A stretch of DNA of 23,626 nt from a virus. The DNA is taken from positions 1 to 23,626 of IMG/VR virus record IMGVR_UViG_3300005613_000418, one strand, 5' to 3'. The notes beneath the pieces are model-generated. The model worked only from the letters and a program-made list of their open reading frames with translations, searched no databases and was not told where the DNA came from. The position numbers and the translations under genes were made by a program. Shown here piece after piece: positions 2,904-8,732 of the stretch (its first letter is position 1; the number at the start of each line of letters is the position of its first letter).

Positions 2904-3976
2904 CCGACGCCAAGCGCAGGCTGACCAAGGCCGCCAAGAAGACCGAGCAGGAGCGCGCGGCGCGGCGGGACGAGCAGCCGATCGACCCGGTGAAGCTCCG
3001 CCGGCGGATCCGCAAGGGCGCGGCCCTGGGCGACCTCTGCGAGCAGTTCGACGCCAGCCCCCGCCGGGTCCGCGAGGCGATCAAGGCGCTCGAGGCCGCC
3101 GGCGTGATGATCGCGCGCAACGGCGACCACTACAACATCGCCGACCGGCCGCAGGTGCCGCAGCGGTTCACGCTCGAGAGCGACGCGGAGGGCGTCTACC
3201 GCATCGGCCTCATCAGCGACACGCACCTAGGCTCGACCTCGTGCCGCTACGACGTGCTCGAGGACGCCTACGACTGGTTCGCGGCGGAGGGGATCGAGAC
3301 GGTCTACGGCGCTGGCAACTGGATCGAGGGCATCGCCCGGTTCAACCGGACCGAGCTCGAGCCCGGCTGCGCGACCTGGGACGGGCAGCTTCGGAACTTC
3401 CTCGACCGCTACCCGAGGCGGGAGGGCATCACGTCGTACTGGGTCAGCGGCGACGACCACGAGGGCTGGCTCCAGCAGCGGGAGGGGATCGACGTGGGGC
3501 GCTGGATGGAGGACGCGGCGCGCGAGGCCGGCCGGGACGACCTCGTGTCGCTCGGCTACGTCGAGGCCTTCATCCGGCTCCAGCGCAAGGGCAAGCCGCG
3601 CGCGTCGGCCAAGATGCTCGTGCAGCACCCAGGCGGCGGCTCGAGCTACGCGATCAGCTACCTGCCTCAGAAGCTCGTCGAGTCGCTCCAGCCCGGAGAG
3701 AAGCCGGCGGTGCTCGCGCTCGGGCACGTCCACAAGTCGGGCTACTTCAACGTGCGCGGCGTTCACGTCGTCCTGGTGCCCTCGACGAAGGACCAGGACA
3801 CTTTCCACCGGAAGAAGCGCCTGGACTCGCACATCGGCTGCGTGATCCTGGAGCTCCGCCAGGACGAGCGCGGCGCGATCTACGAGGTCCTGCCCCGGTT
3901 CCGCCGCTACTTCGATCGTGCTTACTACTCGCGGCAGTTCGAGCTCCCTTCCGGGCATGGGCGAGAGCAAGTCTAG
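2900..3976 (+). CDS. Winged-helix/calcineurin-like metallophosphoesterase fusion
   Basis: This 358-residue protein starts at GTG 2900 (GTGA overlap). Residues ~30-80 form a helix-turn-helix/winged-helix unit (GDLCEQFDASPRRVREAIKALEAAG, then a wing). From ~100 follows a calcineurin-like phosphoesterase: SDTH (D107, H109), GAGNWIEG (137-144), GDDHEG (184-189), QHPGG (H243) and GHVH (275-278). The canonical motifs would read GDxxDG and GNH(D/E). Here the bridging Asp position is Asn140, and the position before the catalytic His is Asp186, an apparent D/N exchange. The fold assignment is strong. The substrate is unknown; phosphodiester or nucleic-acid end processing is typical of the superfamily. 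The HTH suggests it is directed to DNA. It overlaps the next gene by 20 bases. Confidence 0.85.
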   Translation: MTDAKRRLTKAAKKTEQERAARRDEQPIDPVKLRRRIRKGAALGDLCEQFDASPRRVREAIKALEAAGVMIARNGDHYNIADRPQVPQRFTLESDAEGVYRIGLISDTHLGSTSCRYDVLEDAYDWFAAEGIETVYGAGNWIEGIARFNRTELEPGCATWDGQLRNFLDRYPRREGITSYWVSGDDHEGWLQQREGIDVGRWMEDAAREAGRDDLVSLGYVEAFIRLQRKGKPRASAKMLVQHPGGGSSYAISYLPQKLVESLQPGEKPAVLALGHVHKSGYFNVRGVHVVLVPSTKDQDTFHRKKRLDSHIGCVILELRQDERGAIYEVLPRFRRYFDRAYYSRQFELPSGHGREQV

Positions 3977-4298
3977 CCGGACCTCGAGCAGCCTGCGCGA
4001 GTGGTCGCGCGAGCTGCGCCGAGAGCTGCCGCCGATCCTCCCGATCGAGGTGAGGCGCTCGAGGATGAGGCCGAAGGACCACGGGGACTGCGACGTGCTC
4101 CGCCGGGCCGATGGCACCCCGTACAAGTTCCGCGTGAGGATCAACTCGAGGCTTGACGCCGAGGCCGCGCTGCATGTGCTCGCTCACGAGTGGGCGCACG
4201 CGCTCTCATGGTCGAGCGACTCTACGCGGATCGCCGAGCACTCGCCCGAGTGGGGCCTTGCGATGGCGCACGTCTGGAACGTCCTAGGAGGAGAATGA
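3957..4298 (+). CDS. Small HExxH metallopeptidase-like protein (SprT/minigluzincin type)
   Basis: The 113-residue protein carries HEWAH at 77-81, the zinc-binding HExxH motif. A further His in EHSPEWG (H95) is the likely third ligand. This 'HExxH plus downstream H/E-PEWG' arrangement resembles SprT-like or minigluzincin proteases. The N-terminus is Ser/Arg-rich. ATG at 3957 was chosen because it is the first methionine before the conserved region that keeps a modest 20-base overlap; an earlier in-frame start at 3918 would deepen the overlap. No signal peptide is seen, so it would act in the cytoplasm or virion. The natural substrate is unknown. Phage proteins of this type are often left unannotated; proteolysis is inferred, not shown. 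Confidence 0.7.
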   Translation: MGESKSSRTSSSLREWSRELRRELPPILPIEVRRSRMRPKDHGDCDVLRRADGTPYKFRVRINSRLDAEAALHVLAHEWAHALSWSSDSTRIAEHSPEWGLAMAHVWNVLGGE

Positions 4299-6460
4299 TG
4301 CAACCGACAGCCCGCGCACACTGGAACCCGATCAAGCCCGACGAGCCCGTCCCCGTGATCGGCGTCGTGCCGGTGATCGCCTCGACCGTCCGGCAGGCGA
4401 TCAAGATCGACAGCCTGCATCGGATCGAAAGCGAACCCTGGAAGATCTCCCTCGGCAAGATCCACAGCTACCGAGTCTGCGGCCTGGCCTACAACGAGCT
4501 CGACGGCCTGCTCACGATCGACGGCAGCGCGAGGCACGGCGCGCCGGCGGAGCTGCACCCGGACGTAGCGCACCTGCTCGAGCGGTCGGATGAGGTGCGC
4601 GTGACCTTCTCGGACATTCACGGCCGGCGCTACTCGTCGCCGCTGCGCGTGAACGAGCGCGAGGTGCGCTGGGGCTCCTGCGAGGTGTCCGCGACCTACG
4701 GCGGGCCGCTGCTGAACACGGACGGCGATCGCCGGACCTCCTTCGTCGCGGTGGCCTCGACCTACCATTCGGTGCCCTATTTCGTGGTCGACCTGCTCTG
4801 GCACAACGCCGACTGGGAGCACGTCATCGGGGACATCTACCACACCGGGCTGGAGCTCGAGCTGCCCCCCGGCTTCCACGCGGTCGAGCTGCACCCGTCG
4901 CTGGCGCCGGACTCGGGCGACTGGGACATCTTGCCGATGCAGGGCGGCCGGCTCCGGCGCTGGCTCGTGGCGCGGGTCGGGCAGAGCTGGAACCCGCCGG
5001 CGGTGCTCGAGCTCGATTCGGACTGCGACCGGATCTCGTGGGCGAACCCGATCTGCCAGGGCTACCTTCCGCAAGGGGTCCCGATCGAGGCCGACCGCGC
5101 TCGAGCGGACCACCGGAGCTCAGAGATCATCCTGGCCGGCCTGAGCGGCGACCCGCTGGACGACTGGAGCCAGGGCGAGGTCAACGGCTGGCAGGCCGAG
5201 GGGACCCCCTACGGGGCTGCCACGTCGTCGGAAGGGGTCGAGTACTTGGGCGAGTACGGCCTCGCGCTGCACGGACACGCGGACGCGCTGAGGACGATGC
5301 AGGCGGCGACGCTGAACCGGCTGCCGGCGCTGCTGCTCGACAAGCTCGGCGAGCCGATCAACGCCGAGGCCTACGCCGACTCGCTCGACCGGCTCCCGTT
5401 CCGGCTCCGCATCGACCCGATGGGGCGTGGGGTCGAGGGGCACCGCGCCGGCCGGGTGCTGAACTGGAAGCCGGGCCGCGACGCCTTCGGCTTCCGCACG
5501 GCACCGACCACCGACGAGGACCGGGCGATCGAGCTCGGCGTCCACCCGGAGCACCGGACGGCGCTCTACTCGTTCGGCCCGTACGATCGCCAACACTGGA
5601 TGCGGGCCATCCGGGCGACGCTGCCGCTGGCCTACATCTGCGGCGACCGGCTCTCGGTCCACCTGCTGCGCGAGCACGCGGGGACGGCTCGAGCGGAGTT
5701 CTGGGAGGGCAACGGCTCGAGCGAGTACGACAACCGCGTCGGGCACCTCTGGGACACGGTGAGGGCTCAGCCGCAGGTCGGTGCCGAGATCGGGCGCGAG
5801 GACGTTTGGGCGATCCAGACGGTGCTTGCGGCCTGCCAGCTGTCGCGCGGGATGGACAACGTCCGGTTAGGCCGCTGGCTGGCGCGGTACTCGGTCGCGA
5901 TTGCCGGTGCCCAGTGGAACTACACCACGGGCGGCGAGGTGCGTCCGGGGCTGATCCAGGCGCGCAGGAGCGGCAAAGAGGTCGTGTTCCCCGAGGGCGA
6001 CTTCGCCGTCAACCAGGGGTACCAGGAGTCGATGCTCGCCTGGTCGGCGCTCGGCCTGGCGCGGCACTTCCGCAACGAGCACGGCTGCACGGCGGCGGAC
6101 CAGGCGCGAGCGGTGCGGCTGTTCCACGGCGAGCGGCCGGCCTACCGCATCGGCGTCATCGACCTCGACACCGGCGACCTGCTGACCGACAAGGCGCAGC
6201 AGCTCGCGCACCCGTTCCCGGTCGACGCTCAGGTCCAGTCGAGCTACGTGCCGACGCTGGCGGCGATGGCGCTGATGCTGGACTGGATGAAGCCGCCGGC
6301 ACGGTCGGAGATGCTCGAGTGGTTGGCGGTGACGCTGAACTGTTCCTCGACGGCCGCGCTGTCGGAGTGGCGACCGGCGGACGCGGCCGAGGAGCGGCAG
6401 AGCGGCTGCGTTGCGCCGGTGCTGGAGTGGCTGCGGCGTCACGGTATGCTGATCGGATGA
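4298..6460 (+). CDS. Large beta-domain + alpha/alpha-toroid protein, tentatively PcRGLX/YetA-like (polysaccharide-lyase-like)
   Basis: This 720-residue protein has AGGAGG at 4286-4291, placed 6 bases before ATG 4298 (ATG 4295 is also in frame). The N-terminal ~250 residues are beta-rich. Residues ~148-191 (FVAVASTYHSVPYFVVDLLW, then GDIYHTGLELELPPG) resemble the 'aritfyaGxPxvrv...igLxL' segment of exo-rhamnogalacturonan-lyase-like (PcRGLX/YetA) proteins with RIFT-barrel and beta-sandwich domains. The C-terminal ~350 residues are helical with repeated patterns such as WMRAIRATLPLAYICGD and NQGYQESMLAWSALGLARHF, as in alpha/alpha toroid lyases and hydrolases. No signal peptide is visible. Its place between a metallopeptidase and a methyltransferase, away from tail genes, does not show whether it is a virion component. 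Family placement is from memory of pattern only and could be wrong. Confidence 0.4.
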   Translation: MQPTARAHWNPIKPDEPVPVIGVVPVIASTVRQAIKIDSLHRIESEPWKISLGKIHSYRVCGLAYNELDGLLTIDGSARHGAPAELHPDVAHLLERSDEVRVTFSDIHGRRYSSPLRVNEREVRWGSCEVSATYGGPLLNTDGDRRTSFVAVASTYHSVPYFVVDLLWHNADWEHVIGDIYHTGLELELPPGFHAVELHPSLAPDSGDWDILPMQGGRLRRWLVARVGQSWNPPAVLELDSDCDRISWANPICQGYLPQGVPIEADRARADHRSSEIILAGLSGDPLDDWSQGEVNGWQAEGTPYGAATSSEGVEYLGEYGLALHGHADALRTMQAATLNRLPALLLDKLGEPINAEAYADSLDRLPFRLRIDPMGRGVEGHRAGRVLNWKPGRDAFGFRTAPTTDEDRAIELGVHPEHRTALYSFGPYDRQHWMRAIRATLPLAYICGDRLSVHLLREHAGTARAEFWEGNGSSEYDNRVGHLWDTVRAQPQVGAEIGREDVWAIQTVLAACQLSRGMDNVRLGRWLARYSVAIAGAQWNYTTGGEVRPGLIQARRSGKEVVFPEGDFAVNQGYQESMLAWSALGLARHFRNEHGCTAADQARAVRLFHGERPAYRIGVIDLDTGDLLTDKAQQLAHPFPVDAQVQSSYVPTLAAMALMLDWMKPPARSEMLEWLAVTLNCSSTAALSEWRPADAAEERQSGCVAPVLEWLRRHGMLIG

Positions 6461-7491
6461 GCTGGGAGATCCGGGAAGGAGACTGCCTCGAGGTCATGGC
6501 CTCGATGGCAGACAACAGCGTCGACGCGATCGTTACCGACCCACCCTACTTCAAGGTCAAGGGCGAGGAGTGGGATCGCCAATGGGATAAGCCGGAGGCG
6601 TTCCTCGGCTGGCTTGATCAGGTCGCCGAACAGTGGCACCGGATCCTGAGGCCCAACGGCTCGCTGTACTGCTTCGCATCGCCGAAGATGGCGGCGCGTG
6701 TTGAGGTGATGTTGGGCGAGCGGTTTGAGGTGTTGAACCGGATTCGGTGGACCAAATCGGTGGGGTGGCACAATAAGACCCGGCCCGAGGATTTGCGGTC
6801 GTGGCTTTCGCCGTGGGAAGAGATCATCTTCGCCGACCACTTCGGCTCAGACAACATCGCAAAGGGCGAGGCCGGGTATGTCGCCAAGTGTGACGAGTTG
6901 CGGGGGTTCTTGTTCGAGCCGTTGCGTGCGTACCTTGAGGGCGAATGGTCGCGGGCGGGGTTGACACCAGAGGACGCGAACAGGGCGTGCGGGCATCGGC
7001 TTGCGGGCGGCATGGCTGGGCGAAAGTACTTCAGTGCGTCCCAATGGTGCCTTCCCACCCGCGAGAACTACACCAAACTCCAAGCGTGGGCGGGCTCGGG
7101 ATACCTTCGCCGCGAATGGGACGAACTCAAGACCGAGTACGACGAACTCAAGACCGAGTACGACGAACTCAAGACCGAGTACGAACACCTACGCCGACCG
7201 TTCAGCGTCACCGCCGAAGTCCCGTGTACCGATGTATGGTCGTTCCCGATCGTGCAGCACTACCCCGGCAAGCACCCGTGCGAGAAGCCGCAGGAACTGC
7301 TCCGCCACATTCTGAAAGCAAGCACGCGGCCGGGCGCGATCGTCCTCGATAGCTTCGCCGGTTCGGGCGCGACCGTGCTGGCTGCACGCGACCTTGGGCG
7401 ATCGGCCATCGGCATCGAGCGCGATGCCAGCTGGGCCAACTACGCGCGCGAACGCCTGGAACGTCAGCCCGAGCCGACCCTTTTCGAGTGA
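6457..7491 (+). CDS. Beta-class DNA methyltransferase (N6-adenine or N4-cytosine)
   Basis: The 344-residue protein starts at ATG 6457 (ATGA overlap). Motif order is IV then I: DPPY at 28-31 near the N-terminus and SFAGSG (299-304) near the C-terminus, preceded by KHPCEKP (272-278). This order is that of beta-class amino-methyltransferases that methylate adenine N6 or cytosine N4 using S-adenosylmethionine. The region between is the expected target-recognition domain and contains three perfect DELKTEY heptads (222-242) followed by EHLRRPF. No restriction endonuclease is adjacent, so it is probably an orphan, perhaps protecting phage DNA from host restriction. The stretch around 6690-6970 uses TTG leucine codons repeatedly, unlike its neighbours, suggesting a different origin for the recognition region. 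Confidence 0.9.
   Translation: MSWEIREGDCLEVMASMADNSVDAIVTDPPYFKVKGEEWDRQWDKPEAFLGWLDQVAEQWHRILRPNGSLYCFASPKMAARVEVMLGERFEVLNRIRWTKSVGWHNKTRPEDLRSWLSPWEEIIFADHFGSDNIAKGEAGYVAKCDELRGFLFEPLRAYLEGEWSRAGLTPEDANRACGHRLAGGMAGRKYFSASQWCLPTRENYTKLQAWAGSGYLRREWDELKTEYDELKTEYDELKTEYEHLRRPFSVTAEVPCTDVWSFPIVQHYPGKHPCEKPQELLRHILKASTRPGAIVLDSFAGSGATVLAARDLGRSAIGIERDASWANYARERLERQPEPTLFE
7120..7182 (+). repeat. Three perfect tandem copies of a 21-bp unit
   Basis: The unit gacgaactcaagaccgagta plus c occurs at 7120-7140, 7141-7161 and 7162-7182 with no mismatch. It encodes DELKTEY three times inside the methyltransferase. Because the unit is 7 codons, copy-number changes by slippage would stay in frame. A heptad of this kind would form a short helix or coiled coil of adjustable length. 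Confidence 0.97.
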
Positions 7492-8732
7492 GCGAAGTCC
7501 TCGTCAACCTGCTGCCCAAGCAGCTCGACTTCATGCGCTCGACCGCGCGCGAGGTCGGCTACTCCGGGGCCTTCGGCGCTGGCAAGACACGCGCGCTCTG
7601 CTACCGCGCAGTCGCTCGAGCCTCGCTGCCCGGATCGCGTGAGGCGCTCGTGCGAAAGCACCTGACCGCGCTGAAGGCGACCACGCTCAAGACCCTCCTC
7701 GAGCCGGAGGGCGATCTGCCGCCGGTGCTGCCCGCCGGCAGCTACGAGCACAACAAGGCCGACAAGACCATCCGCATCCGAGGCGGCGGCGAGATCGTCT
7801 ACTTCGCCCTCGACGACCCGGACAAGGTGGGCTCGTTCAACCTGAGCGGCTGCGGCATTGACGAGGTGGTCGAGCTCGCGGAGCGGGACTACACCCAGCT
7901 CCGAGGCCGCATCCGTCTCCAGATCGAGGGCCTGCCGAACCAGATCTACTGGGCCTGCAACCCTGGCCCGCCGACGCACTTCATCGCGCAGCGGTTCGGC
8001 CTGGCGCTCGGTGCCAAGCCCGCAGACGGCTGCGCGGCGATTCAGACCTCGAGCCGAGAGAACACCTTTCTGCCCGCCGACTACCTCGCGGACCTCGAGA
8101 CGTTCTCGGGCGTCGCGCACAAGCGGTACGTCCTCGGCCTCTGGGTCGGGTCCGAGGGGCTGGTCTATGACTCGTGGGATCGATCGATCCACGTCCGGCG
8201 GCGCGAGCCCTCGGAGCTCCGGCGCTGGTTGATCGGCGTCGATGACGGCTACACGAACCCGATGGCGGCGCTGCTGCTCGGCCTCGACGGGGACGACCGG
8301 ATCCACGTCCTCGAGGAGCGGTATCGGTCAGGGCTGGCGATGTCGGAGAAGGTGCGCCACGTCGCCGAGCTCGCCGCGCGGGCGACCAAGCTCGGCGGCC
8401 GGTTGGAGATGATCATCGCGGATCCGGCGGCGGCCCAGCTGATCCGCGAGATCCGCGACGCCGGCCTCCCGGTCACGGACAAGGTGGACAAGTCGATCTT
8501 CGACGGGATCCAGCAGGTGCAGCAGCGCCTTCGAGTCGCCGGCGATGGTCTGCCCCGGCTGACGGTCGACCCGAGCTGCTCGAACGTTCAGCGCGAGTTC
8601 GAGACCTACGAGTGGCGCGAGCGGTCCGGCGTCCGCACCGACGAGCCGAGGAAGGCGCACGACCACGCGCTCGACGCCCTGCGCTACGCGACCCGATACG
8701 TGGACGGCAAGCGCGGCGGGCTGCGGCTCTGA
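7488..8732 (+). CDS. terL: Terminase large subunit (DNA packaging ATPase/nuclease)
   Basis: The 414-residue protein starts at GTG 7488 (GTGA overlap). The N-terminal ATPase has Walker A GAFGAGKT (27-34), Walker B GCGIDEV (121-127, catalytic Glu in IDE) and the ACNPG coupling motif (156-160). The C-terminal RNase H-like nuclease has Asp residues in GVDDGYTNP (about 252), IIADP (312) and the final HDHALDALRY (about 392-396). These are the acidic metal ligands that cut concatemers. It would dock on the portal and pump DNA into the prohead. Length is typical for compact terminases. A separate small terminase next to it is not evident; the DUF5681-like gene further upstream is a candidate. The stop is followed at once by a promoter. 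Confidence 0.95.
   Translation: MSEVLVNLLPKQLDFMRSTAREVGYSGAFGAGKTRALCYRAVARASLPGSREALVRKHLTALKATTLKTLLEPEGDLPPVLPAGSYEHNKADKTIRIRGGGEIVYFALDDPDKVGSFNLSGCGIDEVVELAERDYTQLRGRIRLQIEGLPNQIYWACNPGPPTHFIAQRFGLALGAKPADGCAAIQTSSRENTFLPADYLADLETFSGVAHKRYVLGLWVGSEGLVYDSWDRSIHVRRREPSELRRWLIGVDDGYTNPMAALLLGLDGDDRIHVLEERYRSGLAMSEKVRHVAELAARATKLGGRLEMIIADPAAAQLIREIRDAGLPVTDKVDKSIFDGIQQVQQRLRVAGDGLPRLTVDPSCSNVQREFETYEWRERSGVRTDEPRKAHDHALDALRYATRYVDGKRGGLRL

Follow-up and report, generated by a model that had tools for sequence, protein, structure and literature searches.

The window analyzed here is a 23,626-nucleotide stretch of viral DNA (positions 1 to 23,626 of IMG/VR record IMGVR_UViG_3300005613_000418). 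It contains a gene for a 344-aa protein, which is joined by 4-bp overlaps to a 756-aa ORF upstream and to the gene of the terminase large subunit downstream. The upstream ORF (window 4190-6460, + strand) overlaps the start of the 344-aa gene through ATGA and had no Pfam or PHROG match. The terminase large subunit (window 7488-8732, + strand) follows directly after the gene, with a GTGA overlap. The 344-aa protein matched Pfam N6_N4_Mtase (E = 6.9e-42) and was assigned to PHROG 67, DNA methyltransferase. Its fold matched those of M.MboIIA (Z 28.6) and CcrM (Z 28.3), with rmsd of 1.7-2.1 over 204-224 residues. The motifs occur in the order IV (DPPY), variable target-recognition domain (TRD) region, and I (FAGSG). 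As motif I comes after the TRD, this is the beta-class order, and M.MboIIA, CcrM, M.RsrI, and M.BceJIV have the same catalytic fold and motif order. The nearest solved enzymes were mostly adenine methyltransferases, and adenine N6 specificity is predicted for the window enzyme. Judging from these matches, the gene is an orphan phage beta-class adenine methyltransferase. Its features are listed in Table 1.

Table 1. Features of the predicted methyltransferase gene in the window.
Feature	Position	Strand	Basis
Predicted beta-class DNA adenine-type methyltransferase, 344 aa	6457..7491	+	ATG at 6457, TGA at 7489-7491; Pfam, PHROG, fold
Catalytic motif IV, DPPY (residues 28-31)	6538..6549	+	Invariant in 23 aligned relatives
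Target-recognition segment (residues ~136-216), helical	6862..7104	+	AlphaFold2; most divergent part of the family
Heptad stalk, LRREWDE LKTEYDE LKTEYDE LKTEYEH, then LRRPF	7105..7188	+	Translation; model helix 221-245
Three exact 21-bp copies of GACGAACTCAAGACCGAGTAC (DELKTEY)	7120..7182	+	Direct reading, Tandem Repeats Finder, simulations
LRRPF anchor, downstream array border	7189..7203	+	Near-invariant in the family
KHPCEKP (residues 272-278), where the C-terminal catalytic half starts	7270..7290	+	Near-invariant
SAM-binding motif I, FAGSGA (residues 300-305)	7354..7371	+	Conserved

The gene carries a 21-bp unit three times in tandem. A preliminary description had claimed three nucleotide-identical copies that encode in-frame DELKTEY heptads in the methyltransferase. 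Both points were confirmed: the copies contain no mismatch, and the translation reads as stated, at residues 222-242. Tandem Repeats Finder reported the array at 7120-7184 (3.1 copies, 100% match, score 130). The runner-up array in the window scored 46, and in order-2 Markov simulations of the window (n = 100) top scores had a mean of 51 and did not go above 88. The array was also the sole perfect triplicate of 12-40 bp units within the window. Given the protein repeat and the codon usage of the window, three DNA-identical units would be expected with p ~0.006. The exact repeat is part of a longer heptad run, which begins with LRREWDE and ends with LKTEYEH.

The same description had placed the repeat in the target-recognition region. 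This was wrong, as alignment and AlphaFold2 modeling located it downstream of the TRD, in a linker helix. The modeled TRD of the window protein has helices at residues 141-166, 171-178, and 202-212. The TRDs of relatives gave weak HTH_3/HTH_31 matches, and no HTH-type domain match was found in the window's own TRD. The repeat lies in the next helix, which ends at LRRPF and connects to the C-terminal catalytic half. It was modeled as one continuous helix both in the window protein (221-245) and in the five-heptad relative L019 (215-251), with middling confidence in the monomer models (pLDDT roughly 55-90 in the relevant blocks). As far as its published description goes, the non-specific enzyme M.EcoGII has a similar layout: a long, flexible linker, highly charged and in part helical, connects its catalytic domain to an HTH-type helical TRD, and the authors report no such linker in the site-specific M.PflMI (PMC11551740). 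M.EcoGII is 349 aa long and its catalytic part resumes at residue 260 (PMC11551740), which fits SfV orf48, a 350-aa protein with LRRYF near residue 256. Solved beta-class enzymes aligned with the window protein over the catalytic core only (~200-225 of 344 residues), and none of the structural matches offered a solved counterpart for the TRD plus heptad stalk. From the family alignment, the model, the M.EcoGII layout, and this core-only alignment, we assigned the repeat to an interdomain linker rather than to the TRD. The array is an in-frame 21-bp minisatellite; each unit codes for one full heptad of the helix between the TRD and the C-terminal half.

Relatives were collected by searching viral contigs, bacterial genomes, phages, and plasmids. 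The searches yielded 260 locus entries, 180 of them distinct; some loci came from an array-biased pattern search, and the other searches were mostly not array-based. Heptads precede LRRPF in nearly all relatives, and they exist in two states. In one clade, mainly of environmental contigs, they are near-identical: identity within arrays is 0.92, the consensus is LRREYED, and 1-5 copies occur. The enterobacterial/Vibrio clade (relatives of N15, SfV, phiKO2, and VHML) keeps the a/d pattern in its 2-5 heptads, but these have diverged (identity 0.31). The SfV, N15, phiKO2, and VHML proteins were 43-47% identical to the window protein over 91-95% of the length. The window protein falls within this N15/SfV/VHML prophage family, sharing the TRD-linker-LRRPF-KHPCEKP layout, one alignment, and one tree. 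SfV orf48, N15 gp52, phiKO2, and VHML orf17 thus have the domain order of the window enzyme but not its homogenised heptads.

At the DNA level, the same heptad was spelled differently in different lineages and alike throughout one array. For units with the same amino acids, DNA identity was 98.8% inside an array and 84.2% across arrays. For LRREYED, 27 spellings were found overall, yet 20 of the 26 arrays with at least two such units used a single one. Summed over arrays, there were 33 distinct spellings against 74 when units were shuffled between arrays, and none of 2000 shuffles gave a value as low. L002, the nearest relative of the window protein at 80% identity, also has three copies, and every one of them shows the same ACC/GCC difference from the window. 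Between L019 and L144, a GAC/GAA difference runs through all five units, and L043 is intermediate, two of its units having YEY and two YEE. One spelling throughout each array that differs by lineage indicates concerted evolution. The preliminary description had read the identity of the copies as very recent duplication or ongoing slippage. Ongoing in-frame turnover of whole heptads was supported; a single recent event is not marked by identity alone, because a relative only 80% identical also has three copies with the same substitution in each. The substitution shared by all copies points to recurrent homogenisation in the window and L002 arrays.

The copy number changed frequently. The 59 distinct homogenised arrays had two (20 arrays), three (11), four (21), or five (7) heptads. 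No arrays of at least six heptads (pattern L[RK-like][RK-like][ED]Yxx) and no two tandem copies of the window's exact unit were found in viral contigs. On a tree of 46 arrays that was built without the array itself, at least 20 copy-number changes were required. Shuffled labels required 23.9 on average (20-28), so there is almost no copy-number memory beyond close kin. L010 (three copies) and L017 (two) were 95.6% identical in amino acids and 98% identical in upstream DNA, and L062 (three) and L355 (one) were 94.8% identical; in both pairs, the copy number was altered and the TRD and flanks were unchanged. In differing pairs, array length was always a whole number of heptads, and all arrays were in frame. 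These data bear out the earlier proposal that copy number varies among phage lineages in a helix, with relatives having 1-5 copies. A copy number fixed across all relatives had been named beforehand as the outcome that would speak against it; instead, pairs 94-96% identical outside the array differed.

We then assigned the heptad register with Leu at d and Tyr at a. Position a was Tyr in 98%, d was Leu in 99%, e was Arg/Lys in 96%, and g was Glu/Asp in 98%. With parallel in-register pairing, 98% of g-e' contacts were attractive and none repulsive, whereas antiparallel pairing made 98% of g-g contacts repulsive; since the copies are homogenised, such charge counts, like the spelling counts above, are not independent. 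This chemistry fits a parallel coiled coil, probably between two chains. An antiparallel hairpin was considered and rejected, because its g-g/e-e pairs would repel and because copy numbers may be odd or even. The array could also stand as a single, unpaired helix; salt bridges of the b-f, e-b, and f-c types are abundant in the heptads. M.EcoGII is described as eluting as a dimer (PMC11551740).

We propose that the array is probably a length-adjustable helical stalk that links a swappable TRD to the fixed catalytic core of a one-chain enzyme. Slippage or unequal (out-of-register) recombination would drive heptad turnover and keep the array young. Selection would maintain the frame, the helix, the coiled-coil register, and the pattern of Tyr at a, Leu at d, Arg/Lys at e, and Glu/Asp at g. 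One copy corresponds to exactly one heptad (~1 nm), so length could change without breaking frame or register. The helix would pair with that of a second subunit as a parallel coiled coil, and the stalk would set the distance between TRD and core.

The data on turnover also fit a simpler account, which we regard as somewhat improbable. The linker may be a slippage-prone spacer whose length is irrelevant, with mutational homogenisation and with selection only removing frameshifts and register breaks. The near absence of phylogenetic signal in copy number and the wide copy-number range agree with such neutrality, as does the success of the enterobacterial/Vibrio clade with diverged heptads. The heptad residues, however, are tightly kept (96-99%) while synonymous sites vary, indicating that the helix is under selection, and length stays within 1-5 heptads and changes by whole heptads only. 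Taken together, these points limit the sequence more strongly than the length.

TRD replacement was observed next to the array. In several pairs of relatives (L260/L313, L260/L261, L043/L053, L062/L080, and L037 vs L010-L024), the N-terminal and C-terminal halves were 72-98% identical and the TRDs only 19-32%. For L260/L313, the identities of the N half, TRD, and C half were 98%, 27%, and 92%, respectively; for L043/L053, they were 84%, 26%, and 82%. The unlike block begins after the conserved FAE region (IIFAE stretch) and stops at the array, where identity resumes. Foreign TRDs join at varied points inside a heptad, such as ...IAGEYED, ...DSFREYED, and ...KKSYED. We grouped enzymes alike in both catalytic halves into clusters. 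At least two TRD types were present in 5 of 10 clusters with homogenised arrays and in 0 of 9 with diverged heptads, although the latter clusters were larger (one-sided Fisher ~0.02, calculated by hand on few clusters). No TRD replacement was seen among enterobacterial/Vibrio relatives in this cluster comparison. The sequences are suggestive of an association between TRD replacement and homogenised arrays.

These borders raise the alternative that the array is chiefly a homology tract for joining TRD cassettes and that copy-number change is a crossover by-product. TRD replacements stopping at the array with varied join points inside a heptad, and high TRD diversity only where arrays are homogenised, are what it would predict. 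We nevertheless consider it unlikely. The upstream border near IIFAE is equally sharp without any repeat, copy number changes while TRD and flanks stay constant (L010/L017 and L062/L355), and codon-level selection for recombination would not explain the kept amino-acid chemistry. In the breakpoint test, no mosaics split exactly at the array (N half and TRD alike, C half unlike) were found, indicating that the array is a border of the TRD cassette and not a general crossover point. This explanation and the neutral one are both live and are compatible with each other.

For the adjustable stalk, the most likely use would be as a tolerant joint, with which different TRDs could work on one catalytic core and the target geometry could shift. 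As a result, phages would diversify their methylation and so evade host restriction.

A smaller TRD difference was seen between the window protein and L002. At residues ~170-200, they differ in sequence and length (NRACGHRLAGGMAGRKYFSASQW vs NTATGTQMAGHYFTQSQW), and the remaining TRD is nearly alike. This mid-TRD difference is perhaps a change in the recognition helix.

The closest parallel is found in Type IC HsdS subunits. In this group (EcoR124I, EcoDXXI, NgoAV), the recognised site has a spacer of 6 bp when the subunit carries two TAEL/LEAT repeats and of 7 bp when it carries three (PMC10030836; PMC6789123). In HsdS as in the phage enzymes, a conserved helical spacer next to exchangeable TRDs contains tandem repeats, and their number varies in frame. 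HsdS, however, has no catalytic role; it is a subunit of its own that holds two TRDs and has repeats of 4 residues in its central helix, whereas the window enzyme is one catalytic chain with one TRD and 7-residue heptads. Repeat number sets the site spacer in HsdS; the heptad enzyme resembles it in sequence architecture. By this analogy, copy number may tune methylation specificity as the TAEL repeats do. A stricter version, in which the array is a molecular ruler, appears doubtful to us. Each heptad would move the TRD ~1 nm away from the catalytic pocket, or alter the spacing of two TRDs in a dimer, and would retune the methylated sites alongside TRD swapping. Against a length effect, M.EcoGII, with its long charged linker, shows no specificity (PMC11551740), and specificity may therefore be independent of linker length.

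Type III Mod proteins are beta-class methyltransferases in which alleles that are otherwise alike differ by exchange of a central recognition domain. Their repeats act in on/off switching by frameshift, whereas the 21-bp units here keep the frame. Phase variation of that kind needs a unit that is not a multiple of 3; the unit here is 21 bp, and no array was out of frame.

M.EcoGII also suggests a DNA-binding arm, in which the stalk would contact nucleic acid and aid non-specific binding, as proposed for the M.EcoGII linker. The M.EcoGII model has a positively charged surface over the TRD and linker (PMC11551740), and a corresponding linker is present in SfV orf48 and N15 gp52. However, the net charge of a homogenised heptad averages -0.94 and the window's heptads are more acidic, which is poor for DNA binding and makes such a role very improbable. 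An assembly artefact (a collapsed or expanded repeat) is hardly credible: although the window and its relatives are metagenome contigs, the 63-bp array is below the usual short-read length, this architecture is also seen in isolate genomes and in independent contigs, and L002 has an equal copy number with a linked substitution in every copy.

Specificity-retuning tandem repeats and TRD exchange are already known, separately and together in HsdS. No description of heptad or heptad-repeat phage methyltransferases was found in open-licence papers. Within that literature, a concerted heptad minisatellite abutting a swappable TRD in a stand-alone phage methyltransferase appears to be new. If the stalk reading is true, these enzymes would form a large, widespread class of orphan phage methyltransferases with its own diversity engine, an exchangeable TRD combined with a stepwise stalk. 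If each heptad also acted as a ruler step, phages would evade restriction with a single-gene equivalent of the HsdS TAEL system that stays in frame. The natural length variants (n = 1 to 5) provide material for studying how methylation specificity depends on the distance separating recognition from catalysis, and heptad-stalk enzymes could be a scaffold for engineered adenine methyltransferases.

The gene neighborhood was also compared. The terminase gene also follows the methyltransferase gene in L010, L012, L018, L021, and L032, with terminases from differing PHROGs (2, 38, 15, and 9); the pairing may have arisen, or been retained, more than once. A generally conserved neighbor was considered and rejected, since the terminase is present in the window and these five relatives and replication genes flank others. 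Further upstream in the window, an ORF of the SprT-like metalloprotease type (3918-4298, + strand) scored just below the Pfam cut-off (E = 2.4e-5). SfV orf48 lies between the antiterminator Q and the holin, and a relative of its diverged-heptad type was present in 1955 of 5426 complete E. coli genomes, in up to six places per genome.
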